From contig NZ_CP036273.1 in assembly GCF_007747215.1 (NCBI RefSeq), positions 6,370,322-6,434,321 of the forward strand: a DNA stretch of 64,000 nucleotides, read 5' to 3'. The stretch comes from Urbifossiella limnaea (GTDB lineage Bacteria > Planctomycetota > Planctomycetia > Gemmatales > Gemmataceae). Below, piece after piece: positions 1 through 14,071 of this stretch (the stretch's first letter is position 1; each line of letters opens with the position of its first letter). The position numbers were made by a program, and so were the translations under genes. The notes under the pieces are model-generated. The model was not told the origin of the DNA and ran no database searches. It saw only the letters and a list, made by a program, of their open reading frames with translations.

Positions 1-1
1 C

Positions 2-199
2 GCCGAGGCTCAGCCGCTCCTCGCGGCCTTCCTCCCGCACTTCACGACCCCGACGTACACGCGGTTCGTCACCCTGGCCGCGGCGGCCATCCTGACGACC
101 GGCCGGCGGACCGTCGCCAACCTCCTCCGCACGGTCGGTGATCTGGCCCCGGGCTACGACGCGAGCTACCGCCGGGTGCTGTCGTCGGCCGAGTGGTAG
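2..199 (+). pseudogene. Transposase N-terminal fragment (IS4/IS701-like), broken
   Basis: Reading from base 2 gives an open frame that enters from the left edge and ends at a TAG at 197-199. The peptide contains PTYTRFVTLAAAAILTTGRR and ends LSSAEW, which resembles the N-terminal region of DDE transposases common in planctomycetes, where the reading would normally continue past the SAEW segment. Here it stops and the next sequence belongs to a different element. I infer a truncated remnant. Family assignment rests on memory of the motif only. Confidence 0.45.
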
Positions 200-215
200 C
201 GGCTCGAACTCGGGT

Positions 216-308
216 GTGGCCGTCACGCCGACGCAGTTGGCGATGCTCCTCTGCGGCCTCGACCCGGCCAAGGCCCGCGCACGCCGCCGGTACAAAACGC
301 CGGCGTGA
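216..308 (+). pseudogene. IS66 TnpB C-terminal remnant
   Basis: A short frame reads VAVTPTQLAMLLCGLDPAKA followed by a basic tail and TGA at 306-308. This matches the usual end of the IS66 accessory protein TnpB (a 'LT-x-x-Q-LAMLL-x-G-x-D' tail, then Arg/Lys-rich residues). Everything upstream of this tail is missing. The stop overlaps the next frame as GTGA, the usual tnpB/tnpC coupling in IS66 elements. Confidence 0.6.
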
Positions 309-700
309 TGCGCTACCGCGACCACTCCGCCGGTGTTGAATCCGGCATGCCGCCGACCGACGAGTGCGACGACCTCCGCCGCAAGTTGGCCCACGCCGAG
401 GCCGTGATCGCCGAACTCCGCGGCGTCGTGGCCGACCTCCGGAAGCAGGTCGAGGCGCAGCAGGCCCACATCCACCGCCTGGTGAAAATGACGTTCGGCC
501 GCGGCGGCGAGCGGGTCGAAGGCCCGACCATGTTCGACGGGATCGACCCGCCGGAAGCCGAGTTGCCCCCGCCGCCGGTCGAGCCGCCGGCCCCCGAACC
601 ACCGGCCTCGACGAAGCGGAAGTTCGGCCGCCTCCAGGAAGACCTCCTTGAGCGATTCGCGCTCCCGCCGTCGGTCAGTGAATCGCGACCCCGACTGTAA
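305..700 (+). pseudogene. IS66 TnpC N-terminal remnant
   Basis: 131 codons starting GTG-ATG. The N-terminal half has a leucine-zipper-like coiled coil (DDLRRKLAHAEAVIAELRGV) and then the conserved IS66 segment KMTFGRGGERVEGP plus a Pro-rich linker. The zinc-binding and DDE catalytic regions that should follow are absent: after STKRKFGR the sequence switches to unrelated residues and stops. A full IS66 transposase is about 500 aa, so this is a truncated, inactive copy. Confidence 0.65.
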
Positions 701-974
701 CCGGCCCCAAGAGCCAAGAGCGTCATTTCACCGTACGGCTACGTAGCACCCGGGCCGTTGCCGTTACTCGCGGGCGAGTTGCAGGCTAGTCATCCGGCGT
801 TCTTGACCAGGGCGTCCACGTCCACCACATCCGCCGTCGTCTTCCAGCACGTCCCCCACAAGACCCAACCCGAGGAACGGCCCCTGTGCAACCGCCGGGG
901 TGGAGGTCGATTCTTGACATGGCCGGTCATTCTGGGAGAATCCCGACTTCACCCAACCCAAGAAGGTCTCGCCC
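701..974. other. Intergenic stretch after IS debris
   Basis: I see no convincing gene here. The only feature I can support is a promoter-like sequence near its right end, listed separately. Confidence 0.5.
914..941 (+). promoter_or_regulatory. Sigma-70-like promoter for the GIY-YIG-like gene
   Basis: TTGACA at 914-919, a 16-nt spacer, then GAGAAT at 936-941. The -35 is a perfect consensus and the -10 matches four of six bases. It lies about 35 nt upstream of the GTG start at 975. Confidence 0.5.
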
Positions 975-1481
975 GTGGCAATCGTCAACTATGGCCTGTT
1001 CTGGCAGCGGGAGGAAGTGAACTGGAAGCCGGGACAGGGAGGGCAGTTTCGCCTGCTTGGCCGGAACGGGGTGAATAAGCCCGGCCTTCGCGTGGCGGAC
1101 TTCCGTGAGCAGACGGGCGTTTACATCCTCTACGGCAACTACGGGGTCTTCCGCGTCGGGATCGTTACGGAATCGCGTCTCGGCATTCGGCTACGTGACC
1201 ACCACACGAACTACAGTGAACACGAGTGGGACCGCTTTTCGTGGTTCGGGTTCCGTGCCGTGGACTGGAGCCCCGACGAAACGGGCGTGTGCGGGTTGAA
1301 CGATACCCGCTATCTCGATGCCGAAGCCTGGATTAGAGACATCGAATCGTTACTGATTCGGGCGATGGGGCCGACGGGCCAGCGTATCGAGAACTTCCGC
1401 TACGAAGAACGCTGGGAACAAGTCCCGGAGAGCGATGCAGTGTACTGGTTGAACAAGGTTCGGCCCGCCGGGGACGACTAA
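975..1481 (+). CDS. GIY-YIG-like nuclease-family protein
   Basis: 168 aa, GTG start with AGAAGG at 961-966. Residues about 47-75 contain TGVYILYGNYGVFRVG followed by RLGIRLRDHH, the spacing of a GIY-YIG core (GVYIL... in place of GIY, VFRVG in place of YIG, then a conserved Arg). A WDRFSWFGF segment follows, as in uncharacterised bacterial GIY-YIG proteins. These are usually single-domain nucleases of unknown target. The C-terminal half (about residues 100-168) is not recognised. It lies tail-to-tail with a frameshifted second GIY-YIG gene and has a good promoter of its own. Nuclease activity is inferred from the motif only; a binding-only role is possible. Confidence 0.55.
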   Translation: MAIVNYGLFWQREEVNWKPGQGGQFRLLGRNGVNKPGLRVADFREQTGVYILYGNYGVFRVGIVTESRLGIRLRDHHTNYSEHEWDRFSWFGFRAVDWSPDETGVCGLNDTRYLDAEAWIRDIESLLIRAMGPTGQRIENFRYEERWEQVPESDAVYWLNKVRPAGDD

Positions 1482-1716
1482 GGCTCATGCGTCCAGGGAC
1501 GGGAACGAGTGACTAGCCGAGCTCGAAGGCCACGCCCAGCCTGGCCGACGTAGCCAAGCTGATCGGCCCCCCCGCGACCCGGACCCGGTATAGTCCCGGC
1601 CCGGCTGGGATAAGACGGCTGTCCGACGCCCGGAAAGGGATGAACGGGCTCCACGACAACCCGCACCAGTTCGACGCGAGGAACGCCGGGTTCAAGTGGC
1701 ACCCGATCGGCGGCAT
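1478..1716 (-). pseudogene. Second GIY-YIG protein, frameshifted at a G7 run
   Basis: On the minus strand the frame from 1716 reads SWSPFIPFRASDSRLIPAG and then PGLYRVRVAGG, the first half of a GIY-YIG domain. At a run of seven C on the plus strand (about 1567-1573; G7 in the gene) it goes out of frame and stops as FELG. The adjacent frame continues immediately with QLGYVGQAGRGLRARL, the YIG half with its conserved Arg. One extra G would restore a single GIY-YIG domain. The restored protein would end at 1478, overlapping the neighbouring gene end, and is short for the family. A sequencing error in the homopolymer, a decaying gene or slippage are all possible. Confidence 0.55.
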
Positions 1717-1754
1717 TCTGGGGATTCAACGACACAGTTCGCGAGTCAGCCGCC

Positions 1755-2105
1755 TTAAAGGGCACGGTGAAGGAACTCCTCCGCCTGTGCGACTTCGTCG
1801 GGTTCACTTGCCCGAGCGGTCAGCTCTGCGGAAACCCGGTCCCCGCCGTACCAGTTGTCGCCCCGCTGTACCAGGTCGCCGGCCAGGTGGTCGCTCCACC
1901 CGGTATGCAACCAGACGGATTGCGGTGGGTTCTTCGAGCCACCGCGAACGATAAAGCTCATGTAGACGGCGTCCCGCCCGGGAACGGCCGCCTTGTAGCG
2001 GTCTGCACCGCTCGGCACTGGGGGAGAGCCCGTCACTTCCTCCACCACCCTGAACAGCCGCTCTGCGACTGCCCGTAGCTCGCCCTCAAGGCTTTCGACC
2101 TTCAT
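1755..2105 (-). CDS. Hypothetical protein (116 aa)
   Basis: ATG start at 2105. The protein begins MKVESLEGELRAVAERLFRV and has an acidic and amphipathic profile, with a tryptophan-containing centre (SVWLHTGWSDHL). I recognise no family. It looks coding because hydrophobic residues are regularly spaced and both termini are plausible. It is on the same strand as the two neighbours that surround it. No membrane segment or metal motif is visible. Confidence 0.45.
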   Translation of the reverse strand: MKVESLEGELRAVAERLFRVVEEVTGSPPVPSGADRYKAAVPGRDAVYMSFIVRGGSKNPPQSVWLHTGWSDHLAGDLVQRGDNWYGGDRVSAELTARASEPDEVAQAEEFLHRAL

Positions 2106-2195
2106 GCTTGCACCTGGATACCTTTCGCCGCAGGGCGAAGTGCAGGATAGGCTCCGCGATGGCCCCGATGATCGGCAACGAGGCCCGCCGACGTC

Positions 2196-2498
2196 TTACT
2201 TGCGATCCACCTCCCGGTAATAGATCAGGTCGATCACCGCTTCACCCTTTCCCAGCGTCGCCTCCTCCGGGTCATGCCCAGCAGCGGCGTACCGCTCGCG
2301 GAGCACCTGGGCGAGTGCCCGGCGTGTCGGGAGGGTGCGGGCGTCCCGGTGGTCGGCCCAGGCTGTAATGTCGTCCGCACCCCAGCCCGGTGCGACCGTC
2401 CACCCCTGATCGGCGAGGTAGCCCCGCCAGACCTCGGCGTCACTCACCGCCCCGATGTTCGAGATCCTCAAACGGACGGCATCGTACTGTGACTTCAA
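2196..2498 (-). CDS. Hypothetical protein (about 100 aa)
   Basis: The C-terminal part (SDAEVWRGYLADQGWTVAPG ... ending YYREVDRK) looks like real protein, with a compact alpha/beta pattern. I place the start at a TTG at 2498 because an AGAGGA ribosome site lies about 8 nt upstream. A longer frame to 2603 also begins with TTG but its extra residues look non-coding. That choice leaves a 158-bp divergent spacer to the next gene. Family unknown. Confidence 0.4.
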   Translation of the reverse strand: MKSQYDAVRLRISNIGAVSDAEVWRGYLADQGWTVAPGWGADDITAWADHRDARTLPTRRALAQVLRERYAAAGHDPEEATLGKGEAVIDLIYYREVDRK

Positions 2499-2656
2499 AC
2501 CTGGTTCCTCTGCTCCGACACTCAGCCCAGCTGGCCGGCAATCGGATTGTAGCGGGCGAGGATCGACACGCTGGACAGCCGGAAATGCTATACTTGTGGA
2601 CAAGGCAAGGTCTGCGGGTTACATGAACGGTACGCCCTCTCATATCCAGGTGACAC

Positions 2657-3028
2657 ATGGCCAAGAAGAAAGAAGATGAAGAGGCCGGAAACGGCTCGAT
2701 GACGAAGGCCGACGCGGTGCGGGCCGCCGTCGCCGAGGGGGTGACGAAGCCCCAGGACGCGTGCGAGTGGATCAAGACGAAGTTCGGCATCGACATCACG
2801 CCCCAGCACTTCAGCAGCTACAAGAGCCAGCAGGCGAAGAAGGAGGGTGGGATGACCAGCAGTGGCAAGCGTGGTCGCAAGCCCGCCCAGGTCGCAACGG
2901 GCGGTGGTGTCAGCGGCGGCAACGAGCGTTCGAGCAGCCCGGCGGAGCTCGCCCGTCAGGTCAAGGCTCTGGTGCAGCAGTACGGGGCGGAAAACGTCTC
3001 CGACATGCTGGCCGTACTCTCCGACTGA
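2657..3028 (+). CDS. Small conserved hypothetical, possible nucleic-acid-binding protein
   Basis: 123 aa, ATG start 9 bases after an AGGTG site. A Lys-rich start (MAKKKEDEEAG) leads into a helical core (about 15-60: DAVRAAVAEG ... ACEWIKTKFGIDITPQHFSS) that looks like a small helix-turn-helix-like fold. A basic low-complexity linker follows, then a C-terminal helix ending MLAVLSD. Proteins of this build recur in Gemmataceae as far as I recall, with no known function. It is followed 28 nt later by the next gene on the same strand. Confidence 0.6.
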   Translation: MAKKKEDEEAGNGSMTKADAVRAAVAEGVTKPQDACEWIKTKFGIDITPQHFSSYKSQQAKKEGGMTSSGKRGRKPAQVATGGGVSGGNERSSSPAELARQVKALVQQYGAENVSDMLAVLSD

Positions 3029-3055
3029 CCCCGCAGCCGGGATGGGAGTATCGCC

Positions 3056-3400
3056 ATGAAGGTCAGCGGGTGGAAGGACACCAGCAGCGACGTCGATGGG
3101 AACACCTACGGTCTTCGGCTCCGGTTCGAGGATCGGGACCGGGTCTTCGGCAGGCGGAGGCCAAAGGCCGTCTTCCTGCTCCTCGGCAACGCGAGCTACC
3201 GGATCCCGCTTCTCCCTGGCTTTTGGAACGAGTGCCCGGAATTCCGTGACAACGCCGAGCAGCCGACCCGCCGGTTGCTCGGGCTCTTGAACCTGCTCTG
3301 CTGGAAGAAGCGTAAACCCCCGAAGTTCGAGCTAGTCCACCTCGGGAAGGACCGATTCCGGCTCCATCCAGAGCCAGTGACGGCTGGCGGGGACGACTGA
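3056..3400 (+). CDS. Hypothetical protein (114 aa)
   Basis: Begins MKVSGWKDTSSDVDGNTYGL, basic overall (GRRRPKAVF, CWKKRKPPKF). No recognised family and no membrane segment. It follows the 123-aa gene by 28 nt, so the two are probably co-transcribed. Its TGA at 3398-3400 directly abuts the stop codon of the convergent zinc-ribbon gene, leaving no spacer. Confidence 0.5.
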   Translation: MKVSGWKDTSSDVDGNTYGLRLRFEDRDRVFGRRRPKAVFLLLGNASYRIPLLPGFWNECPEFRDNAEQPTRRLLGLLNLLCWKKRKPPKFELVHLGKDRFRLHPEPVTAGGDD

Positions 3401-3916
3401 CTACCGCTGCGACGTACCACCATCCGCTTGCAACTGTCGCTGGAGCCGTACCGATTCCTCCAAGACTGCAACCACTTTCAAAACCCCGCTGAACACGATC
3501 AGCCCGACCCCCGTGACCACCCGAACAAGTCGGTCATTGAGCCGTCCCGTGTTATGCACACGTCCCACCTGGCCCGGCACGTCGGTCGTGGTGTCCATGT
3601 CCAGCCCGGAAATCAGGCACACGGTCCCGACGACCAGCAGGATCATGGAGAAGAGATTCCGGTACGAGCCCGGGCGAGCTTTCCGATTCCTGCCGGGCGG
3701 AGACTCACCTCGCTTGGACGGGGGCGGTATCGAGGACTCAAGCGGAACGGTTTTTGGGCGAGCGGGGGGAGGAGGCGGGGGAAAAGGCGAGGATGCCGGG
3801 ACCCGGGCTTCGCTCCCGCACTCTGGACAGGTGGTAACGCCCCCGGTTGTCCCCCGCAGCCACTTCTCGCACTCGGGGCACTGAAACGTGACGGCCTTCG
3901 GGTTGGTGCTGCTCAT
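3401..3916 (-). CDS. Zinc-ribbon membrane protein
   Basis: 171 aa. Residues about 13-35 hold a zinc ribbon with two CxxC pairs (CPECEKWL and CPECGSEA). A long Pro-rich linker, a hydrophobic segment (MILLVVGTVCLISGL) and a second one (VVTGVGLIVFSGVLKVVAVL) follow. This architecture (cytosolic ribbon, disordered linker, membrane anchor) is very common in planctomycetes and mostly uncharacterised. It is convergent with the 114-aa gene with no gap between the stop codons. Confidence 0.6.
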   Translation of the reverse strand: MSSTNPKAVTFQCPECEKWLRGTTGGVTTCPECGSEARVPASSPFPPPPPPARPKTVPLESSIPPPSKRGESPPGRNRKARPGSYRNLFSMILLVVGTVCLISGLDMDTTTDVPGQVGRVHNTGRLNDRLVRVVTGVGLIVFSGVLKVVAVLEESVRLQRQLQADGGTSQR

Positions 3917-4110
3917 TGCTGGGTAAGGTCGGTAGCCAGCACTTGGGCGACTACCGCCGGTCTGCTCCTAAAGGAGGGAAAAGGGAACTGCGGCCGTCGC
4001 AGCCCTCGACGCGGTTAGCCCACCACCGCATGCCAGCGACCACGTCTGCCCCGTCCCGGGCAGCGGCATCCCGGCCCGGACGGCCTCCTCGGACGCTACC
4101 AACTCGATCG

Positions 4111-4124
4111 TGTTGCTGGCAACA
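4111..4124. promoter_or_regulatory. Candidate operator dyad for the XRE regulator
   Basis: TGTTGC-tg-GCAACA, a perfect 6-bp dyad followed by an AT-rich run (ACATTTTTGATTG). It lies about 60 bp upstream of the XRE start codon, the usual place for autoregulation by this family. Binding is inferred. Confidence 0.4.
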
Positions 4125-4184
4125 ACATTTTTGATTGAGCGGTTTCCCCCTCCTGCCGGGCGATGGCAGTGGGAGGGGGCTGCC

Positions 4185-4556
4185 GTGGCGAAGAAGGGGG
4201 TTCCGATCCGGCATGCGGGGGTAGTCGAGCGGTTCGCCGCCCGGCTCCGGGAACTGCGATTGGCCCGTGGGATGACGCAGGCAGACCTAGCCCAGCAAGC
4301 AAGCGTGACCCCGAACTACGTCGGGAAGTTGGAGAACGCTGGAGCCGCCCCAGGAATCGATCTGGTCGAGCGGCTCGGAGTGGCCCTCGGCGTGACGGCT
4401 TCGGACCTGCTGCAATCGAGCACCCCGAGCGACCCGCGACCTGTCCTCCGCGACCAGGCCCGCCGCCTCCTCGACCGCGTAGCCGAGGACGACCACGCCC
4501 TCACCTTTCTGGTTCCCCTCCTTGCCCGTCTGGCTGGCGGTCCTGGCAGCCTCTGA
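4185..4556 (+). CDS. XRE-family transcriptional regulator
   Basis: 123 aa from the GTG at 4185, chosen because a purine-rich ribosome site (GGGAGGGGG) precedes it; the frame is open further upstream. Residues about 14-68 form a canonical Cro/C1 helix-turn-helix: LRELRLARGMTQADLAQQAS then NYVGKLENAG. A helical C-terminus follows (VLRDQARRLLDRV). Such regulators typically repress mobile-element or defence genes. It precedes the low-GC metallopeptidase block on the same strand, and a dyad lies in its own promoter region, suggesting autoregulation. Confidence 0.75.
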   Translation: MAKKGVPIRHAGVVERFAARLRELRLARGMTQADLAQQASVTPNYVGKLENAGAAPGIDLVERLGVALGVTASDLLQSSTPSDPRPVLRDQARRLLDRVAEDDHALTFLVPLLARLAGGPGSL

Positions 4557-5032
4557 TCCCTTACACCGTGTGACTTTTCTGGGAAGAAGGGCTTCCGTCG
4601 CGTGCGGTACAGGAACTTGGGCGTTATTCACCTTCCCCGTCAGACCACTGCACTCATTCGTGTGGGCTTCCTGCCGGGGAGAAGAAGCCGTCTGCGGAGC
4701 AGGCTCGGCGTTCGAAAGAAGGACCAAAAAACACTTGCCACTGTACTCCGAGGACAGGTAAGCTGGGCGGTAATCAAGGGAGAGTTGCGGGCAAACAAGG
4801 TTCCATTCCAGTTCGCCTACGGCAGCCGGGGGTGAAGGGCTGAAAGACATCATCGCGGAGGCGAGGCGGGTGGGAGGGAGCATGCCCTCTGCACGGCCGC
4901 GAATAGATCGAAGAAAAACAACCTTCCCCCGGCTTGATTCAGCGAGGGACTTCAAGCGTCGCGATAATATTCAGGATTGGGCAGCGAAATGTGGATAAGG
5001 GCGGTAATCAACCTAGCCCGAGGCACGCTGGC
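4557..5032. other. Non-coding spacer before the metallopeptidase block
   Basis: I see no convincing gene. The sequence changes from GC-rich to visibly more AT-rich from about 4700 onward, the left edge of the compositionally distinct block. In-frame upstream start codons of the next gene (4934 ATG-like frame, 4991 GTG) fall inside this stretch, so its true start could lie here. Confidence 0.4.
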
Positions 5033-6115
5033 ATGACACGCCTACGTACATTTCAACAAATCTTGCAAGAAGACGAGCTGGTCGTCTTTCCACCACACAT
5101 CGGTTTTAAAGGTAACCCGGGAAATGCCGATGGCAGCGAGTTAAGCCGCCTTCAATGTGACCTCTTGAAATGGATGATCGAGCCTGTCCAGGGAGCCACT
5201 GAGTGCATCGTCCTGCCCAAGCCCGATCGTTATAAGGGCGAACCGAAGATGGTCACCCCAAAGACGATTATCAACTTTAGCGGTATGCCAAATGCATCGG
5301 CGCGCACCTTTGCCGGAGGCGAGTTGGAGATTCATCTCGGATTGCTGACTGCATTTGCTTCTCTCCCAAAGACCTACACGCTCGTAAACCGAGAGCTCTC
5401 TTGCTCTGAGCACCGTCTTGATCAACTTGCCAGTTTCGATCCACCGCGAGCAGTGCTGTTGGAGATTGCGAGTTTGGCACGGGCATGGGAAATGTCAGAG
5501 CAAGCCAACTGGCAACTATTGGTTCCTGTGATCGACGGTCTTGAGTCAAGCGCGAGCCGTGTCGGAGGGCGTGGCATGGTTTACCTCGTGGTTGGGCACG
5601 AGCTCACCCACTGGTTTGAGTCGCTTTACAAAGATGCGGAGTGGGAGCGGATGATGGCGGAGATACGAGGGCACATTGTCACTTGGCTCGATGAGGAGTC
5701 AGCCCTAGTGCGCCCCGCAGTACTCGCGACAGCACGAGAAGCACTCCGCGACCCGACTGTCATGGATTCATGGGTCCGAGAATTCCATGCTGACATGGGT
5801 GGATTTGAGTACCTTCACGCTACCGAGACACACGGCGGATGGGCGAAGAGTCCTGAAAAGCTGGCTTCCGCTTACATGCACGTTTCGTTCTTTTTCGCGT
5901 TGAATGCGATGGTTGAAACCCATCTTGAAAGACGTGAGCATGAGTATGACCACAGATCGCATCCGCCCTGGAACATTAGGAGAGCGGTCTTTTGCCATAT
6001 CCAGGCAAAGCGAATGGGAATGTCGCAACAAGATTACTTGTTCCGTCAGTTTGGAGCAGGCTTTGCGACCTCCATCTTAATGGATCGCATCCTCGATGTC
6101 TACTTGAACGGATGA
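5033..6115 (+). CDS. HExxH zinc metallopeptidase-like protein (first of two)
   Basis: 360 aa from the ATG at 5033 (in-frame alternatives 4991 and about 4934; none has a strong ribosome site). Residues about 186-194 read VVGHELTHWF, a zincin HExxH. About 61 residues later comes EFHADMGG (E near 250), which could give the third ligand as in gluzincins of the M48/U49 kind. The flanking sequence is not recognised; no signal peptide and no clear TM segment are present, so I expect a cytosolic enzyme. GC is lower than in the housekeeping part of the window. It forms a same-strand set with a small hydrophobic protein and another HExxH protein. Confidence 0.6.
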   Translation: MTRLRTFQQILQEDELVVFPPHIGFKGNPGNADGSELSRLQCDLLKWMIEPVQGATECIVLPKPDRYKGEPKMVTPKTIINFSGMPNASARTFAGGELEIHLGLLTAFASLPKTYTLVNRELSCSEHRLDQLASFDPPRAVLLEIASLARAWEMSEQANWQLLVPVIDGLESSASRVGGRGMVYLVVGHELTHWFESLYKDAEWERMMAEIRGHIVTWLDEESALVRPAVLATAREALRDPTVMDSWVREFHADMGGFEYLHATETHGGWAKSPEKLASAYMHVSFFFALNAMVETHLERREHEYDHRSHPPWNIRRAVFCHIQAKRMGMSQQDYLFRQFGAGFATSILMDRILDVYLNG

Positions 6116-6204
6116 GTCCCCAGCGACCTGGAGGCATATACTGCGAGCTTTCGCGATGACGGAGAGATCTTTCGGCTGAACGAGTTCACACCTAGGGAGA
6201 AACG

Positions 6205-6591
6205 ATGGAAAACGCTGACGAAATTGCTCGACTATTGAGTCTGTCGCAGGACGAGATCTACTTGGAGATCGGTCGCCAGCTTACAGGCCGTGAAGCCTTC
6301 CCTACGCCACCGGTACACCTCATCGCTAGGGCGAGAAGATGGGCCACCGAGAGGCTCGCCCAAGCGGTTTGTTCGAGCGACAAGCTGAAGGTGCTCTCGC
6401 GGCAGGATGTGCCAACGCAAGAAGTGATCCTTTCGATCAGTGCCGTGCTCGACGTGGTTAGCCACGTGCTTGGCGGTGTACCTGCCCTCACTGCAGCCGT
6501 CCTCATCGCTCGGGTGGGGCTGCACAACTTCTGTGCGGTGATTTGGGCAGCACAAGAGTCACACATCGCCCCAAAGGATGACTCGCGTTAG
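6205..6591 (+). CDS. Small hydrophobic-tailed hypothetical protein
   Basis: 128 aa, ATG start with GGGAG about 8 nt upstream. The N-terminal half is helical and charged (ENADEIARLLSLSQDEIY). The C-terminal half has two hydrophobic stretches (VILSISAVLDVVSHVLGG and LTAAVLIARVGLHNFCAVIW) that could span a membrane or form a helical hairpin. No family recognised. It sits between the two HExxH genes, 89 nt after the first. Its stop codon touches the inverted repeat that follows. Confidence 0.55.
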   Translation: MENADEIARLLSLSQDEIYLEIGRQLTGREAFPTPPVHLIARARRWATERLAQAVCSSDKLKVLSRQDVPTQEVILSISAVLDVVSHVLGGVPALTAAVLIARVGLHNFCAVIWAAQESHIAPKDDSR

Positions 6592-6657
6592 AAGCTCTGA
6601 CACAACCTCCGAGAACCCCCGGTTTTCAAGGCATTTTGGGGGTTGTGTCAGGGCTTC
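6591..6657. repeat. 17-bp inverted repeat, terminator or MITE-like
   Basis: Arms 6591-6607 and 6641-6657 pair over 17 positions with one G-U type mismatch; the loop contains a further CCCCC/GGGGG pairing option. It directly follows the stop of the small hydrophobic gene. It may be a strong terminator. The arm beginning GAAGCTCTGACACAACC also resembles insertion-sequence ends, so a miniature element is possible. Confidence 0.6.
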
Positions 6658-6741
6658 TTAGGTCTGGCAGCCGATAGTGCAAGTGCAGGCCGCGTTGAGT
6701 TGTGCTCAAGAACGGAGATCAAGGAATTGCAGGAGAGCCCT

Positions 6742-7896
6742 ATGGGACTTTATGAAGATTACGTTGACCTTCTTGCTCTACACAACGTAGACCCTCCTGA
6801 GAAAGTAACGCATGTCGATCTACTAAAGGGACTGGAACAGATGGCAGCCTCGTCAGACCCGACGCAGCGGGCGATCGGGGCGAAGGCAGTAGAGGTGCAT
6901 AATAAATATGGAAGCCAAGTTGATGAGTTCGTGCGGCGACATGGCAAGTATTCGGCGAGTGGCATGCTCGATACCTACGTCACTTTTATAAACGACGTGC
7001 TTCATCGAGAGGGCCGTACACTAAGAGACGACATCTTTATCGACGAGTTTCCAACAGGAGAATTCAATGCTTGCGCCGTACGGACCAATAATGGGCACCT
7101 GTGCTTATTGAACACCGGCCTTCTTAAGTTGCTGTATCATCTATCACTTTCGTCGTGCTATCTGATTAAAGGCAATGTATTGAATCAAACACTCGATTTC
7201 TCCGCGCGTTTAGCCTTGGAGGACGAAGCGTCACTGCCAGCTATCGGAGCAGCAATCAAATCGATCTACGCATACTTAGCGTTCGGACAGCATCCTTATC
7301 CGATAGAGATCCAAGAGGGAATGCACGAGGCCGCACTCTTATACGCCAATGGGATTGCGGGGGGAATGCGGACGTTCGTGGTTGGTCACGAACTTGCCCA
7401 TGTAACCCTGGGCCATCTAGATACGTCTGAAAAGCGCAGCGTCATCGCTGAGAATGGCCGGCTTGAGGTCGCTAGTAGCAGCCAGGAGCAAGAGTATGAA
7501 GCGGATTTAGAATCGCAACGGCTGATGCTCAAGATAACCGGTCCGGGTATGAGCTTTGCCTTTGGTGGCGTCTGCTTTCTCACTTGTGGCCTGATCGTTG
7601 AATCGTTCCAGTCAAAGCTTTTTGGTAGCACAGTGGACAGTCAGCGCCATCGCGCCACGCACCCACCGACGCACCTCCGCCTCATGCAGCTTTGGCAAGC
7701 CCTTGAACAGCAGGTGTCTAAGGATGAGCTTGCAGCAACTGCAACAATTGCCAGGTTGCTATTCGATTTATTATCTATTTTGGATGCGACGTCGATCGAA
7801 CATACTACAAATGGTATCAAGATACATTTCAACAAAGCTGCTATTGGGCAGAGCAGCGAGTTGCGTCGATCCCCTGATGCCCCCCCCGCAACATAA
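6742..7896 (+). CDS. HExxH zinc metallopeptidase-like protein (second of two)
   Basis: 384 aa. The ATG at 6742 is chosen because AGGAG lies 7 nt upstream; the frame is open further left. Residues about 213-222 read VVGHELAHVTLGH with the HExxH at about 216-220. E253 in QEYEADLES follows 37 residues later, the HExxH...ExxxD pattern of M48/M78-like gluzincins. A hydrophobic patch follows (GMSFAFGGVCFLTCGLIV) and then a helical C-terminus. Composition is distinctly AT-rich for this genome: bases 7141-7200 contain 22 G/C of 60. It is not a close paralogue of the first peptidase beyond the motif region. Substrate unknown. Confidence 0.6.
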   Translation: MGLYEDYVDLLALHNVDPPEKVTHVDLLKGLEQMAASSDPTQRAIGAKAVEVHNKYGSQVDEFVRRHGKYSASGMLDTYVTFINDVLHREGRTLRDDIFIDEFPTGEFNACAVRTNNGHLCLLNTGLLKLLYHLSLSSCYLIKGNVLNQTLDFSARLALEDEASLPAIGAAIKSIYAYLAFGQHPYPIEIQEGMHEAALLYANGIAGGMRTFVVGHELAHVTLGHLDTSEKRSVIAENGRLEVASSSQEQEYEADLESQRLMLKITGPGMSFAFGGVCFLTCGLIVESFQSKLFGSTVDSQRHRATHPPTHLRLMQLWQALEQQVSKDELAATATIARLLFDLLSILDATSIEHTTNGIKIHFNKAAIGQSSELRRSPDAPPAT

Positions 7897-7905
7897 GCAC
7901 CCCTT

Positions 7906-8148
7906 TCAAAGGAGAGCGGCTTTCTCTAAGGCGGCAATCGCTTCCTCGACCGGATCCGGCCCCTCTTCCTCTCTTTCGTAAAGGGAAGACACGATCCGCC
8001 GAGACTCGGGATCGGCCTCCTCGAGAGGGATACCTCCGCAGAGCACGTCCCAGAAATCCGACGGGAAGCCGTACTGGGTGGACTCCGGCGGCTGCTGAGC
8101 CTCCAGCCGGCCGACCCGGGCACGGAGCGAACGGGAGTAGTCCTTCAT
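7906..8148 (-). CDS. Small hypothetical protein downstream of the TerS-like gene
   Basis: 80 aa, ATG at 8148 overlapping the end of the upstream gene by ATGA, so translationally coupled. It starts MKDYSRSLRARVGRLEAQ (coiled-coil-like) and has an acidic C-terminus (EEEGPDPVEEAIAALEKAAL). No family recognised. The coupling suggests it works with the HTH protein upstream. It is convergent with the second metallopeptidase gene, 10 nt away. Confidence 0.55.
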   Translation of the reverse strand: MKDYSRSLRARVGRLEAQQPPESTQYGFPSDFWDVLCGGIPLEEADPESRRIVSSLYEREEEGPDPVEEAIAALEKAALL

Positions 8149-8552
8149 CGCTTCCCCTTTGGCCGGGCGGCCTCCAGCTCCTCGATCCTTGTCCGGAGCT
8201 CGACGGTGGACGTGACCTGGAGGAAGAGCTCGTACACGGTTTTCACGGCCTCTAGCTGCACCCCCTCGTTCTTCGCCCGGAAGAGCTTCTGGAGGCGATC
8301 GAGTGCGGCCCCGGCCATCATGTCGGACAGCCGGCCGAGGGCTCGCTCAGTCAGGTCGCGACGGAGAGCAGCCACCCGGGCGTTGAAGGCCGGGCTCCTT
8401 TTCCAGGTGTACACAGTCTGCACGCCGACTCGGCACTCACGACAAACGCGAGCCACGGTAGCCCCAGCGGCGAGGGCCGCGGCAACCTGCTCCTGACGCT
8501 CGGTCAGTTCCGTCCCGTTTTCTCCGTTTTCTTCTTGCCTAGCAGGTGCCAT
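8145..8552 (-). CDS. TerS-like / phage-type helix-turn-helix protein
   Basis: 135 aa. Residues about 15-55 hold a helix-turn-helix (LTERQEQVAAALAAGATVAR ... GVQTVYTWKRSPAFNARV), the layout of phage small-terminase N-terminal and insertion-element HTH domains: 'T-x-x-Q', an HTH, then 'W-x-x-xPxF'. A long helical region and a coiled-coil tail (LRTRIEELEAARPKGKR) follow, which could oligomerise. Phage satellites of the PICI type encode such small terminases to redirect packaging. Here there is no adjacent large terminase or structural gene. A plain DNA-binding regulator is the alternative. Confidence 0.5.
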   Translation of the reverse strand: MAPARQEENGENGTELTERQEQVAAALAAGATVARVCRECRVGVQTVYTWKRSPAFNARVAALRRDLTERALGRLSDMMAGAALDRLQKLFRAKNEGVQLEAVKTVYELFLQVTSTVELRTRIEELEAARPKGKR

Positions 8553-8620
8553 AGTCGTTCTCCTTTCCCTACTCGCTTCCCCAGACTGCCCTCGCCCTGC
8601 GAGACATTCCTGGGAGGGGG

Positions 8621-8721
8621 TAGAGGGTCTAGACAGTTAGACAGTTCCCCGGGAAGTGGGCGGGGCAAGTCGTTCCTATAATAATCTTCCTGCGAACCGT
8701 CTAAACTGTCTACACCCTCTA
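8621..8721. repeat. Long imperfect inverted repeat with TAGACAG motifs
   Basis: Arm 8621-8646 and arm 8695-8721 are near-complementary over about 26 bp. Each arm carries two copies of a TAGACAG-like heptamer. The spacer contains an AT-rich tract (TATAATAATC). It lies between the end of the primase gene and the start of the TerS-like gene. Possible roles are a replication origin for the primase, a regulator-binding site or a terminator. Confidence 0.55.
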
Positions 8722-8775
8722 GTTTACCTACTCGTTCTGCACGTATTGCAACACAAGCACGTCGGCCGTTCGCAA

Positions 8776-10518
8776 TTACGTGAGCCTCAGCCCCTTGCGA
8801 CCTACGCGTCCTGCAAGTGGCCCTGATTTATACATGACGGATTCGAACCCCCGCCGACCCAGATCCGTCCCGAAGGCCGTCTGCGTGATGCCAGAATCGG
8901 GGAACAGATCCATAAAGGCCCGATAGAGGTCAGATGCCGATGTAACGTAGTTCCCTCGCTCGCACCGCAAGTTCAGAAACTGTCCGATCACATCCTGCTC
9001 TCGTGCATACTTCGCCGTGGCGTCAGCGATGCACTTCGGCTCCATGAGCCCGCCCTTCTGCCACTCCATGCACCCCCGAACCATCCATGCGAGAATGCCC
9101 TGGGCCTCGGCTAGAAGCTTCCACGGAAGCTTGCGATCGACCTCGGACCCCTTAAATTGCCGCCGGAACTCGATCAGCTTCAGCCGTCGCCAGATCGCGT
9201 AATCGCAGCCCTTGACCTCGGGTTTGTAATTCGTGCCGAGCAAGATCTTGTGGGTCGGGCTGAACGTGGTGAAGTTCTCGTACATCCCGCGGCCGGTGAC
9301 CCGGTCTCCCCCGGTCAGGTGCTTAATCAGAGCCTCGTTCAGCTTGCAGCCGGCCTCCGTCTCTTGGGCCATCATCAGCCGCCGACCGCGGAGCGTCATC
9401 AGTTCGGTCGGGTGCCGATCCCCGTGGGTCGATACCTTGAACAGCGTCTGAGGGGGGCTGCCAGCGTGATCATCGCCTACGACAGCGAGCAGGGCATTGA
9501 CGAGGGTCGACTTCCCGTTACTCCCTCCCCCCCAGAAGATGGGGAGTACCTGCTCCGAAATATCTCCGGTCAGGCCGTACCCGAAGAATCGCTGGAGGTA
9601 GGCGATCAGTTCGCCATTCCCCTCGAAGACTTCTCGCAGGAATCGCTCCCATGTCGGGCAGGGGGCCGCGGGGTCGAACGGGGTCGGGCAGAGCTTGGTC
9701 AGGAAGTCGTAGCGGTCATGCGGCCGCAACTCGCCCGTCCGCAGGTCGAGTGTGCCATTTGGCACGTTCAGGAGCATCGGGCTGGCGTCCAACCTGGTTG
9801 CAGAAATCGCAAGCAGGCCGCGTGCGAGATCCACCATGTTGGTGATACCGTGAGCAGAGGAGGAGACTTTGGCGTAGGCGATGTACTGGGCCAGCATCGG
9901 CGGCGGGGCATCGGACCGAGCGATTTCCTCCCACAGCCTCGCGGGCACGGCCTTCGCCTTCTCCCTGACGACGATCCCGTTCGCATCCCGCACCCACCGC
10001 TGCCCATCCCAGACGATCCATTCCTTCCACTCGGGCACATACCGTAGGTCCGATCCGGCGAGTTCGACGAGCCGGTGTGCGTTCGCGACATCCGTGCGAC
10101 ACTCCGCCATCGACAGAAACTGGTGGAGGACAGGTACGGCATCATTGCCTGGCGGTGCTGCATCTGCCTCCGGAGTGTGTGGCCCTCCCTCGCTTTCCAC
10201 GAGATGCGAGGGTGCCGTCTGCTCGGAGCAGGGCTCGGAAGCTGAAGGCTCGGGGATCAGGGCTATCACGTCGGCACTATCGGCCCAAAGGACGGTTGGC
10301 CCGCCCCGTCTCCCCGAGTAGTCGGTTGGGTCGCCGCGGTGCTTCAGGACAGCGTGTTCGAGCGTCTCTCCGTACTTCGCCAGTAGGGTGCCAGGAGGTA
10401 GCCAGCCACTGGACCACTTCGTGTCCTTCGCCTCCTTTTCAGAAACGGGGTTCGGGGCCGTGCGGTTTTCCGAATTCGGCTGTGGACTTTTCTGTGCGGA
10501 TTCTGGAATCTTCGGCAT
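8776..10518 (-). CDS. P4/D5-type primase-helicase (SF3 ATPase)
   Basis: 580 aa, ATG at 10518. The first 130 residues are low-complexity. A D5_N-like region follows (about 140-300; PEWKEWIVWDGQRWV, LLNVPNGTLDL) and then an SF3 helicase core with Walker A GGGSNGKST near residue 330, an acidic Walker B region (RRLMMAQETE) and LLGTNYKPEV with IWRRLKLIEF downstream, as in phage/plasmid primases of the P4 C-terminal family. These proteins unwind and start replication of phages, plasmids and satellites. It is the clearest mobile-element gene in the island, 82 nt downstream of an HTH gene on the same strand. I could not identify a separate N-terminal primase catalytic motif, so it may act as the helicase part only. 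Confidence 0.85.
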   Translation of the reverse strand: MPKIPESAQKSPQPNSENRTAPNPVSEKEAKDTKWSSGWLPPGTLLAKYGETLEHAVLKHRGDPTDYSGRRGGPTVLWADSADVIALIPEPSASEPCSEQTAPSHLVESEGGPHTPEADAAPPGNDAVPVLHQFLSMAECRTDVANAHRLVELAGSDLRYVPEWKEWIVWDGQRWVRDANGIVVREKAKAVPARLWEEIARSDAPPPMLAQYIAYAKVSSSAHGITNMVDLARGLLAISATRLDASPMLLNVPNGTLDLRTGELRPHDRYDFLTKLCPTPFDPAAPCPTWERFLREVFEGNGELIAYLQRFFGYGLTGDISEQVLPIFWGGGSNGKSTLVNALLAVVGDDHAGSPPQTLFKVSTHGDRHPTELMTLRGRRLMMAQETEAGCKLNEALIKHLTGGDRVTGRGMYENFTTFSPTHKILLGTNYKPEVKGCDYAIWRRLKLIEFRRQFKGSEVDRKLPWKLLAEAQGILAWMVRGCMEWQKGGLMEPKCIADATAKYAREQDVIGQFLNLRCERGNYVTSASDLYRAFMDLFPDSGITQTAFGTDLGRRGFESVMYKSGPLAGRVGRKGLRLT

Positions 10519-10600
10519 AGGTTTCTCCTTGACCCATCGCAGCCTGCTCCCGGCAAGTAGGAGGCTGCGGTGGGTTACTTTGTTGAGGACAGTCCGAGGA

Positions 10601-11053
10601 TCATCGAGAACACGGAGCGTGCTGGGCGAGGCGTCCCAGCATGCACCTCTGAATGTCGGCGAGGTCGAGCCCGGGCGGCAGCATGCCTGCCTCGCCTGTA
10701 GGTTCGATCAGCTCACCCGGTACCCACTCTCCTCCGAGCCGAGCCGCCGGCACCGTGTACGTCCGACCGTCGGCGATGGCCGATTCCAGCGTGGTCGCGT
10801 CGAGAGAGCCCAGGCACTTCACCACACCGGCCACCCAATCCGCCCCTGCCCCAGCTTCACGCCAGCGGAGCCCGGCCATCACAGCAAGCACCTGCGTCTG
10901 GGAGAACAGGTGCGGGAAACCTCGGCCGCGGCCCCCGACCCGAACGGGTGTAAGCAGCCCCCTCCCGACCCACTGGGCGAGCGTCAGGCTTGGCAGCCCC
11001 GTGATTGCACATAGCTCCGCAGAGGTGAACCGATCTTGCAGTAGCTGTGTCAT
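10601..11053 (-). CDS. MerR/AlpA-like HTH DNA-binding protein
   Basis: 150 aa, ATG at 11053 with a G-rich site upstream. Residues about 8-50 (RFTSAELCAITGLPSLTLAQ then WVGRGLLTPV) fit a winged MerR/excisionase-type helix-turn-helix with 'LLTP' in the wing. The C-terminal part (about 60-150) is not recognised. It heads the leftward primase/TerS-like module and sits beside a large palindrome and repeats in the upstream spacer, which are candidate binding sites. A regulator or recombination-directionality factor role is inferred. Confidence 0.6.
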   Translation of the reverse strand: MTQLLQDRFTSAELCAITGLPSLTLAQWVGRGLLTPVRVGGRGRGFPHLFSQTQVLAVMAGLRWREAGAGADWVAGVVKCLGSLDATTLESAIADGRTYTVPAARLGGEWVPGELIEPTGEAGMLPPGLDLADIQRCMLGRLAQHAPCSR

Positions 11054-11628
11054 AAGCGATTACCCCCACAAGCCGTAGCGGCAGACCCAAATGGAACCCT
11101 ACCCAAACAGATCCAGCTTGGGAACGACAACCAAAAAGATAATAAACTATTCTGACGATCCGCGACGCGATCTCCGACGCCCTCATTCCAGGATCGGACG
11201 ATCTCTACACCGCTGAGCCTATCCGAATAGAGACGTGAGTTTCCAGAGTCACCGAGGATCGATCCTCTTTGAATCCACACATACGAGACTGGCGACGTAT
11301 GCCACACCTGGCAGGGGTGTCGAACGACACCATCCCTGCCTGGCATGGTGTGGTGACGTGAGTGTCAGTATGGACAGGGGTGTCAGAACCCGCCAAAGGA
11401 GCTTCGGACCGAGTTTGTGTGAGCAACTTTATGGGACTGGCGACGCATGCCACGTCTGACGGCAGGGGTTACTATGGCCCGCAACTGTGAGCATGGAAAG
11501 GGGGTCATTGTGGGCAGGAGTACGGCGCTCGCGGCCTACGTCCGCAGGTGGACCGACCGCGGCAAGGCCGAGCGGCAGGGGCCCGCGGGGGGACGGCCCC
11601 GCCACCGAGGCAGAACCCGCTCGAGCCG
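11054..11628. other. Control region with palindromes and direct repeats
   Basis: 575 bp without a convincing gene, between the HTH gene and the end of the AbiC-like gene. It holds an AT-rich patch (about 11128-11152) placed as the promoter of the HTH gene, plus the repeats listed next. This layout suits an operator, origin or attachment region of the mobile module. Confidence 0.5.
11287..11453. repeat. Nested palindrome and 19-bp direct repeat
   Basis: GACTGGCGACGYATGCCAC occurs at 11287-11305 and 11435-11453 with one mismatch. Between the copies, 11302-11353 forms a nested dyad: CCACACC/GGTGTGG outer arms, GGCAGG/CCTGCC middle arms and the perfect inner palindrome GGTGTCGAACGACACC at 11316-11331. 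Further GGTGTC copies follow. Confidence 0.65.
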
Positions 11629-12624
11629 TTAACTTGGAAGCGGCTGGCCTTCCGGGACTGCGTGCCCGGCGGCTCTCAGGTATTCGAGGATGACGTGGTA
11701 CGGGTGCACCCGGCCTTGCCCGGGGTGGAAGTGCGCCTTCATCTTCTCGACGAACTGCGCAAGAACTTGGCCCCGCTCTTGGCCCATTACTTCGAGGTAG
11801 TCTGGGGCGATAGCGATGCCAGCCTCCTTCCGCTCGTGCTCCCGCGCAAGCCATACACGAGAATAGTTGAGGTAGACCTGTAGGGTCTGGCGAAAGCACA
11901 GAAGGCACTTCTGTGCCCGGTCTTCAGACGTTCCTCCACCGTGCCAGTATGCATCACCAAGCGTTGCGCCGTCTTCAGTCGATTTGTTATCTCGCACATT
12001 GCGCACATGCCTGGTCATTGCTTCGAGGTAGATTGCTGACGGCCGCTGCCCTACCCGGTGCAGGAGCCACACGACTTCCCGCAGAATCTGCTTTGTCACC
12101 TCCTTGAGGTAGTAGGGCTTCTCACTCCACCATGTTGCGAAGCCGAGGTGAGGCATCACGATCTCGAACATAACCTCAGTGTAGTAAAGCGTCTCGTCGT
12201 TCTCGGTTGACAGGTATGTGTCGGCGATTGCTGCGAGCTTGTCGTCCTCGGCCTCGAACCGGTGAAGGTGGAACTCCTGCTGCTGCTTCGCGAGTTGCTT
12301 GCGCTGTAGGTGGATCGTGTACCCCACCCCGACCAGAGAAAGCCCCGCGAGTAAAGACCCCACGACCCCGAACATGTCACCGAACTTCCCCCGGTCGTCG
12401 AGTTCGGACTGGGCGATGATGCCGTACCACGGCCGCTCGGGCGCGGCAGGAGCGGTCGACGGCAGCGTCCCCTCGGCGTGCGGTATGGGCGGCGCTCCAG
12501 GTCGGTCGTCGTAAACGAGGGCTGTGTAGCCGAGGACCACAACGAGCAGCCACAGGAGTACCACGCCGAAGCATGAAATGCCGGCGATAGACTCGGCGCT
12601 CGGCCTGCGCGGTTTGACGTCCAT
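11629..12624 (-). CDS. Two-TM protein with AbiC-like (putative abortive infection) topology
   Basis: 331 aa from the ATG at 12624; the frame extends to 12897 but those residues look non-coding and would overlap the divergent gene. TM1 is at about 14-33 (GVVLLWLLVVVLGY). After a Pro-rich loop, FGDMFGVVGSLLAGLSLVGV at about 87-107 forms TM2, followed by TIHLQRKQLAKQQQEF and a long helical cytosolic domain. The 'FGD-x-FG...GL...TI-x-LQ' junction is the pattern I know from proteins annotated as putative phage abortive infection proteins; the rest of the domain does not clearly match. It is divergent to a helical R-x4-H protein. A defence role is inferred, not shown. Confidence 0.5.
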   Translation of the reverse strand: MDVKPRRPSAESIAGISCFGVVLLWLLVVVLGYTALVYDDRPGAPPIPHAEGTLPSTAPAAPERPWYGIIAQSELDDRGKFGDMFGVVGSLLAGLSLVGVGYTIHLQRKQLAKQQQEFHLHRFEAEDDKLAAIADTYLSTENDETLYYTEVMFEIVMPHLGFATWWSEKPYYLKEVTKQILREVVWLLHRVGQRPSAIYLEAMTRHVRNVRDNKSTEDGATLGDAYWHGGGTSEDRAQKCLLCFRQTLQVYLNYSRVWLAREHERKEAGIAIAPDYLEVMGQERGQVLAQFVEKMKAHFHPGQGRVHPYHVILEYLRAAGHAVPEGQPLPS

Positions 12625-12819
12625 GGGCGGATTGTCCGAATGGTCTGGGAGAGCGAGAGTATAAGTGCCTTCGGCCCGTCTGGTCAACCGACCGCACCAC
12701 AATCTCCTGATGCTCCTCGCTTCGCGGCTGCTTCTAGCCTTGATCCGCGAACCCGAGGGCCGGCCAATTGGTCTATATGTGTTCAGGTACACGCAACCCG
12801 ACTCGATGAGGGCGAAATC

Positions 12820-13572
12820 GTGGGCGAGAAACCGACATCGTGGGTGGAGCAGATGTGCCGCCATCTCGCCGAGGTCGAGCGAGAAACGACGGAGCAATTG
12901 GGCGAGCTGGAGCGTGGCTTCTTCGTGAACGTGGCGAACGACTGCACGGACATCGGCTTCGCCGTCAGCCAGGCCTACCCCCGGAAGGTCAACCTCGTGC
13001 TACACACCGGCTGGGGCGTCTTCAAAGAGGCGACGTGGTTCCAGTTCCTTTTCGTATCGGGCAACTACCCCCTGCTCCTGAGCCGGCTGCGGTATGTGTG
13101 GGAGGCAGTATTCCGGGCGTACTTCGTGGAGAACTACCCTTTTCGGAATAGCCCTTCCTCCTGGGTCGCTCCGGGGCGGTCGGCGGCAAAGAAACTGGTG
13201 TGGCTGGAAGAACACGGCCGAGCACTGGATTGGAACCGGTGCATGGAGCCGGTTCTCCGGGCGGTCTTCCCGCTAGCGGACAGTGAGCCCGAAGTTCGGG
13301 AGCATTACCGACGCCGGTGGGGCGAACTTCACAAGTACGTTCACGCGTCTGCGTACCTGGCCGGCCGCATGGTCGGCAAGTCGGCACTCCACTTAAGTGA
13401 CAAATTCGATCGGAAATGGGCGAAGGAGTGCGTCGCCATCGCCCGCGAGGTGTTCGACCTCGTTTGGATGGCGGTCCTGGGTCATCACCCTATGGCGGCC
13501 GATCGGATGCACCGCCTCTCCGGGGAGTACCCGGTGCTCAAGAGGGTGTTTGAGAAGATGAACGAGTCCTGA
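12820..13572 (+). CDS. Helical protein with R-x4-H motif (HEPN-like candidate)
   Basis: 250 aa from the GTG at 12820, chosen because AGGG lies about 8 nt upstream and it leaves a 195-bp divergent spacer; a longer frame to 12640 would leave only 15 bp. The protein is almost all helix (VEQMCRHLAEVERETTEQLG ... FVSGNYPLLLSRLRYVWEAV). Near residue 170 HYRRRWGELHKYVHAS contains R-x4-H, the short motif of HEPN ribonucleases, in a helix followed by a second long helix pair. No named family recognised. Pairing with a membrane AbiC-like protein suggests a two-gene defence unit; equally it could be an unrelated cargo gene. Confidence 0.45.
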   Translation: MGEKPTSWVEQMCRHLAEVERETTEQLGELERGFFVNVANDCTDIGFAVSQAYPRKVNLVLHTGWGVFKEATWFQFLFVSGNYPLLLSRLRYVWEAVFRAYFVENYPFRNSPSSWVAPGRSAAKKLVWLEEHGRALDWNRCMEPVLRAVFPLADSEPEVREHYRRRWGELHKYVHASAYLAGRMVGKSALHLSDKFDRKWAKECVAIAREVFDLVWMAVLGHHPMAADRMHRLSGEYPVLKRVFEKMNES

Positions 13573-13999
13573 CTATCGAGCAGCCACTTCCGGCCCCGGC
13601 TGATTGCCTCGAAGCAAACTGGTTAGCCGAATCGCTTCCCGTGACTTTTCGGAACCGAATCGCGAACCACCCTCCGAAGTGGGCGTCTATTGAGTGCACC
13701 GGCAATACCTGAGGCCAAAACCCTGCGGAATTCTTAGTGCAAGATGAAAGTTGAGCAGCATTTCGCGAAACCGGCTCAACCAGCCGGCGGCTTCGCCAGC
13801 AAGGTACGGAAGACGCAATAGCCCTACCGCAGAACGCGACATGCGTTCCGGCCAGGGTAGACCCCTGGCCGTCTTCGTTTCGGGCAAGCCGCAGGGGGTC
13901 GGGTCACCCGCCAACCCGGCCGAAGGGAATCACCAGGGGGCTGGTGACAGGGGCAGCACGAAAAAGGTTCGACTCCGTCTCCCCGTTTCGTGAACACGC
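13573..13999. other. Spacer between island and tRNA cluster
   Basis: 427 bp with no convincing gene. It contains a terminator-like hairpin (GGCCAGGG at 13850-13857 with CCCTGGCC at 13863-13870, followed by a T-containing tail). From about 13970 to 13985 a stretch (GGTTCGACTCC) resembles a tRNA T-arm without a complete cloverleaf, possibly a degraded tRNA. The island's right boundary probably lies here. Confidence 0.4.
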
Positions 14000-14071
14000 T
14001 CCGGGATCGTCTAACGGTAAGACGCCGCGCTCTGAACGCGGAAAGTGCTGGTTCGACCCCAGCTCCCGGAT
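14000..14071 (+). tRNA. tRNA-Gln (CTG)
   Basis: Full cloverleaf: acceptor TCCGGGA/TCCCGGA, anticodon arm CCGCG-CTCTGAA-CGCGG with anticodon CTG, T-arm GCTGG-TTCGACC-CCAGC. No CCA is encoded. First of four tandem tRNA genes. Confidence 0.9.

Follow-up and report, generated by a model that had tools for sequence, protein, structure and literature searches.

A small protein encoded directly before different HExxH proteins suggests an undescribed two-gene conflict module

Three genes lie consecutively on the + strand at positions 5033-7896 of the window, as we call the whole 64,000-nucleotide stretch of DNA analysed here. P1 (5033..6115) encodes a 360-a.a. protein with HELTH at residue 189, EFHAD 61 residues further and HPPWNIR; S (6205..6591) encodes a 128-a.a. 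protein; and P3 (6742..7896) encodes a 384-a.a. protein with HELAHxxxGH (HELAH at residue 216), EYEAD 35 residues further and HPPTHLR. For the start of P3, the ATG at 6742, which stands behind AGGAG, was preferred over the TTG at 6643 given by the mechanical ORF list. Sequence resembling a ribosome-binding site precedes both S and P3, and all three frames are open, with the catalytic motifs intact. These coordinates and motifs agree with a first-pass annotation of the same DNA, which had described two gluzincin-like proteins and a 128-a.a. protein on one strand. The AT-rich character that it had seen in these genes, with 22 G/C of 60 at positions 7141-7200, is borne out: the G+C content of 5033-7896 is 53.1%, the window as a whole has 69.5%, and 612 segments of the same length included not one with so low a value. 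The GC3 values of the three block genes are 0.58, 0.65 and 0.53, against 0.73-0.86 in nine further genes of the region 975-13572 and 0.96-0.98 in two genes beyond the four tRNA genes at 14.0-14.3 kb.

Genes for a phage-like terminase small subunit and a D5 primase lie beside the block, and an XRE-type regulator gene (4185..4556, + strand; HTH_31 match, 1.3e-13) lies on its other side. The DNA upstream of the window encodes a DNA methylase and a large serine recombinase; this upstream locus (L120, 11838-18228) also carries a ParB-like gene, named from sequence reading and without a Pfam match. We read it, together with window positions 1-14000, as a putative integrated element near the four tRNA genes. 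The first-pass annotation had placed an XRE regulator with a dyad operator in front of the block. The gene is real, but it has a G+C content of 68.8% and is 476 nt from P1, and thus stands outside the AT-rich block; we assign it to the surrounding element, as a neighbour that is probably not part of the unit. The dyad (TGTTGC-2-GCAACA, 4111-4124) is unremarkable, as 1.1 kb of sequence holds 30 inverted repeats, this one included. It sits in front of the XRE gene; as an operator for P1 it was dropped.

Motif inspection showed that P1 and P3 share HExxH, ExxAD and HPPxxxR in this order, which we take to be a gluzincin/M48-like motif set; the loci L017-L023 and L059 described below have this order too, with an H or a Y preceding the P. 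In the M48, M78 and U49 profile searches that had been proposed for these proteins, P3 was weakly similar to the M48, M78 and Lit models but missed every curated cut-off, with 18.6 bits for Peptidase_M48 (PF01435; cut-off 20.3), 12.4 bits for M78 (PF06114; cut-off 22) and 14.7 bits for the Lit model NF007238 (cut-off 274). P1 had no match to the Pfam model PF01435 and chance-level matches only in the Pfam and NCBIfam searches, and none of the block proteins had a Pfam match to PF10463 (Lit, U49). Among the PADLOC models, P3 weakly matched Lit (7e-5) and capP (0.0018). The AlphaFold model of P3 (pLDDT 36.1) was too poor to use.

With a two-row profile, 397 genomes of the class gave P3 relatives in 10, the window included. 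From the P3-type alignments we left out L013, L014 and L015, which had the look of ordinary M48 proteins or of longer ones, and from alignment A10 the short L020. The ten-sequence P3-type alignment has HExxH, one further His, ExxAD and a Pro as invariant features; six of the ten sequences reach E ≤0.01 with M48, and the relative L021, with 25.9 bits, exceeds the PF01435 cut-off of 20.3. P1, which is not in the P3-type profile, ranked next after the M48 proteins among the six-frame frames of the fetched loci (E 0.009-0.019, whole and partial copies), and BLASTP aligned P1 with P3 over 30 residues around HExxH (E 0.01). Because P1 comes next in this profile and shares the three motifs and their order with P3, we assign P1 and P3, from their sequences, to remote soluble M48-like gluzincins that are strongly diverged from each other. 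The HtpX/Ste24 types of M48 have membrane helices, of which P1 and P3 show no sign.

Searched against 294 genomes of the phylum, P1 matched itself alone. Nothing was found by tblastn of P1 and P3 against plasmids or of S and P3 against phages, and scans of viral contigs with exact patterns or profiles of P1, P3, S and the partner peptidases yielded no relative. Seven P3-type loci (L017-L023) encode stand-alone M48-like peptidases (HExxHxxxGH, ExxAD) that are scattered in the phylum and fall below or near the Pfam cut-offs; within the 9-14 kb analysed around each of them, no frame resembled S at E ≤1.

Seven S proteins could be aligned across most of their length, with Cys56, Gly105 and Cys110 invariant besides Met1. 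The structure model of S is all-helical, at low confidence (AlphaFold pLDDT 53.6). S had been described as a small membrane protein, and its hydrophobic stretches are real, but this description has weakened: S reaches a Kyte-Doolittle 19-residue maximum of 1.97, six relatives have 1.56-1.95, and the stretches contain charged residues and His, so that S is not clearly a membrane protein. We dropped the canonical membrane protein as an assignment for S; a buried bundle of helices is no less likely. No family came near its cut-off when S and its relatives were compared with Pfam, NCBIfam and PADLOC, where some relatives were compared with a subset of these libraries.

The search for S yielded nine distinct loci: the window, L058, L066, L059, L083 (genome G189), L112 (G484), L067, L084 (G153) and L124 (G675). 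By tblastn against plasmids, S gave seven weak matches (best E 0.1), and in three Streptomyces records the match directly precedes a gene encoding an HExxH protein. The other four, in Sphingobium/Rhizorhabdus plasmids, were rejected as chance (E ~0.6); one of them was read as a Phd-like antitoxin gene followed by a PIN-like gene. L058, L059 and L066 are Streptomyces plasmid loci with S, and a fourth Streptomyces plasmid was found starting from the first three Streptomyces records; a second plasmid with the same pair as L059, CP146838, was not counted again. Profile A5, built from the window S and three Streptomyces proteins, retrieved G189 at E 1.5e-9 from the 294 genomes of the phylum, and the next gene in G189, which overlaps S by 4 nt, encodes HEVGH...EVHAD. 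Profile A8 retrieved G484 at E 2.9e-4 from the 397 genomes of the class, where S and the gene for an HERCH protein overlap by 8 nt. The G484 assignment leans on gene context, since its E-value summed over the 397 genomes is only ~0.1, and its partner is without ExxAD. This partner (L112, 3594-5363), a 589-a.a. protein without any Pfam match, is possibly another type of zincin.

Three loci carry S without a zincin. L067 (Streptomyces A1136), the only locus from the genome-contig scan, has a decayed S copy, and the search for a peptidase remnant beside it gave chance-level matches only. L124, found in G675 with profile A9 at E 1.3e-4 among 59 genomes around G189, has an S-like gene and, behind it, a Phd/ParE-type pair, as named from sequence reading. 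At L084, an S domain is fused to TPRs, and the next gene encodes a Lon-like ATPase that has DolB-type hits in PADLOC; this ATPase lacks a protease domain, and the two genes (5024-7311) are possibly a related two-gene conflict system. Among the candidates that we did not accept, G667 (E 3e-5) is part of an HTH-like protein, L105 (E 7e-4, profile A9) is without the C-terminal motif, and further weak hits were rejected as chance.

In six of the nine loci (the window, L058, L059, L066, G189 and G484), an HExxH protein is encoded immediately downstream of S. As a control, we examined the 68 S-search hit loci other than the window, of which three had an HExxH frame just downstream. Two of these are G189 and G484; the remaining weak hits thus gave 1 of 66, indicating that the association is not general to weak hits. 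The third control locus, L090, has stop codons in its S-like stretch and its HExxH 672 nt away. The base rate of HExxH in long frames (21/112) was set aside, because family members and spurious frames are counted in it.

Type II toxin-antitoxin genes would be expected to have a small first gene that overlaps the second, and neutralisation of toxicity; of these, the gene order and the overlap are seen in five of the six pairs, where the zincin start overlaps the end of S by 4, 4, 4, 8 and 14 nt. The window pair is the one without an overlap, as S and P3 are 150 nt apart. An inverted repeat with 21-nt arms (6590-6610 and 6638-6658), missing from the first-pass annotation, lies between the two genes and begins at the S stop codon. 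It belongs to a MITE-like palindromic element (6588-6660) that has three genomic copies with 100, 97 and 79% identity. The simplest reading is that its insertion separated a formerly closer S-P3 pair.

Pairwise comparison separated the two components: the S proteins mostly match one another, and the partners mostly do not. P3 matched the L059 partner at E 3e-6 and the L058 partner at E 0.31, and the partner zincins of L083 and L112 had no significant match to the other partners. S therefore looks like the constant component, with swappable protease effectors, and it is the more diagnostic of the two because P3-type peptidases also stand alone. The first-pass annotation had joined both peptidases and the small protein in one candidate system. 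No other of the nine S loci has two peptidases around S, and P1, which is without relatives, lies outside the unit seen elsewhere; P1 plus P3 was therefore dropped, and the conserved unit, as judged from these comparisons, is S with its downstream zincin P3. In the comparison set beforehand as the refutation test, namely co-occurrence in other genomes, S with a zincin recurred and the peptidase pair did not. The proposal of an undescribed system has become plausible, since no curated family claims P1, S or P3 and S followed by an HExxH protein recurs in other genomes. A literature search over titles and openings of abstracts, with supplements and most subscription journals outside its scope, returned no description of a pair of S and a zincin.

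The surroundings of the other S loci include mobile-element and conflict-system genes, each a single observation without a background rate. Three S loci are on plasmids, and L066 lies amid transposases; a TrwC relaxase and a tyrosine integrase are encoded near L083, and a NACHT-like protein (below cut-off) 1.2 kb upstream of L058. On CP146838, the S-zincin pair comes after CHAT, CATASP and CATRA genes that are 2.5-7.7 kb from it. The pointers to anti-phage defence are of this contextual kind, namely the CATRA neighbour and the mobile elements. The same Streptomyces plasmid also has, near the CATRA genes, two overlapping uncharacterised genes (L126, 2216-6401), the second with a ZacB-type PADLOC hit.

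The block's proteins belong to no curated family tested, and their kind, as far as sequence tells, is that of a small constant partner with an effector. The CATRA/CATASP and EACC1-type systems, with a small constant component and a variable effector, resemble the S pairs in having a small gene before a larger partner and in their occurrence in Streptomyces, where one S pair lies near a CATRA system; however, S matches none of their Pfam models, and a CATASP (PF20271) protein scored at chance level with the S profile (E 3.4). We presume that EAD/EACC1 models were present in the Pfam copy searched, and that NCBIfam has models for FxSxx-COOH and mod_HExxH. The Dodola DolB and Lon ATPases are comparable in that the S-TPR fusion of G153 precedes a Lon-like, DolB-like ATPase, but no such ATPase is paired with S at the S-zincin loci. 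Lit (U49) is a cytosolic HExxH protease linked to phage exclusion, and P3 (7e-5, PADLOC) and the L059 peptidase (3.7e-4) weakly match Lit models, although P3 remains at 14.7 bits against 274 for NF007238; to our knowledge, Lit has no small S partner. Proteases of this kind can be growth-stopping effectors, as in the action of Lit on EF-Tu.

S stands before proteases of different types in bacteria that are not related to one another, on their plasmids and mobile elements, which suggests an undescribed two-gene conflict module, either defensive or toxin-like. Our preferred reading, to which we give a probability of roughly 0.4, is that S and P3 form such a module within the integrated element, with S as the constant small protein and a cytosolic zinc metallopeptidase as the effector that is swapped between loci; its flavour is best read as toxin-partner or abortive-infection-like. 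Gene overlap and order speak for S and the zincin being made together, and a small protein that stays constant while its effectors change speaks for a role in conflict. S may bind the peptidase and hold it inactive, in an antitoxin- or adaptor-like manner and perhaps via the two invariant cysteines, until a trigger such as a phage or a competing element releases the peptidase, which would then cleave a cellular target and stop growth or the invader. P1, divergent and in the same fold group as P3, may be an additional effector-like peptidase that is carried alongside. On account of co-production, effector swapping and the Lit precedent, we prefer to see in S a partner by which the zincin is kept in check, or recruited, pending a trigger. 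On the supporting side, S stands directly before HExxH proteins in two phyla, mostly in overlapping genes and on plasmids or near mobile-element genes; the counterweight is that S occurs without a zincin at three of nine loci (L067, L084 and L124) and that seven P3-type relatives stand alone.

The best alternative is that S is a substrate, which the zincin would cleave to yield a peptide signal or a modified peptide; pairs of a zincin and a small FxSxx-COOH protein encoded in one operon and linked to actinobacterial conflict systems are described in PMC7159879. The S genes are likewise small and placed before the zincin. S, however, has no FxSxx tail and no family match, and with its alignable length in seven proteins and its two conserved cysteines it does not look like a variable precursor with one conserved tail; the FxSxx and mod_HExxH NCBIfam models were also absent among the hits, which leaves this alternative unlikely. 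It is unlikely, too, that the small gene is unrelated to the other two and a chance neighbour, in an accessory island, of two M48-like peptidases that serve housekeeping or quality control. This would account for the P3 relatives in the phylum that mostly stand alone and for P1 having no relative, but it sits poorly with S and an HExxH protein at five further loci, four of them with overlaps of 4-8 nt and one of 14 nt.

An improbable possibility is a CapH-CapP or ImmR-ImmA-like switch, in which the protease would cut the XRE repressor and derepress the element. A regulator gene does lie near a metallopeptidase here, and in PADLOC the XRE protein matches capH (1.5e-12) and P3 weakly matches capP. 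The XRE hits are nevertheless generic for an HTH, the composition of the gene sets it apart from the block, and P3 misses the M78 cut-off; moreover, by annotation or frame reading, no XRE gene was seen adjoining the other five S-zincin pairs, so that regulation of the unit by the XRE gene is not supported. Equally improbable is a decaying block, whose genes are being lost after insertion of the palindrome separated S from P3: the 150-nt gap with the repeated palindrome is peculiar to the window's pair, but all three frames are open, the catalytic motifs are intact, and S and P3 have ribosome-binding-site-like sequence in front of them.

Returning to S as a partner of the zincin, a wider version can be put forward tentatively, and we regard it as possible but rather unlikely: S may be an adaptor or inhibitor domain for interchangeable proteolytic effectors, including several unrelated zincin types and, via the TPR fusion, a Lon-like ATPase, and may thus mark a new class of protease-executed immunity or toxin-partner systems spread across phyla by plasmids and integrative elements. 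We know of few protease effectors in bacterial immunity, namely Lit, caspase-like and trypsin-like proteases. The pairs raise the testable question of whether S is an off-switch, a sensor or a substrate of the protease, and if S is the constant partner of varied zincins, it would provide a handle to find many protease-executed systems that are invisible to current defence libraries.
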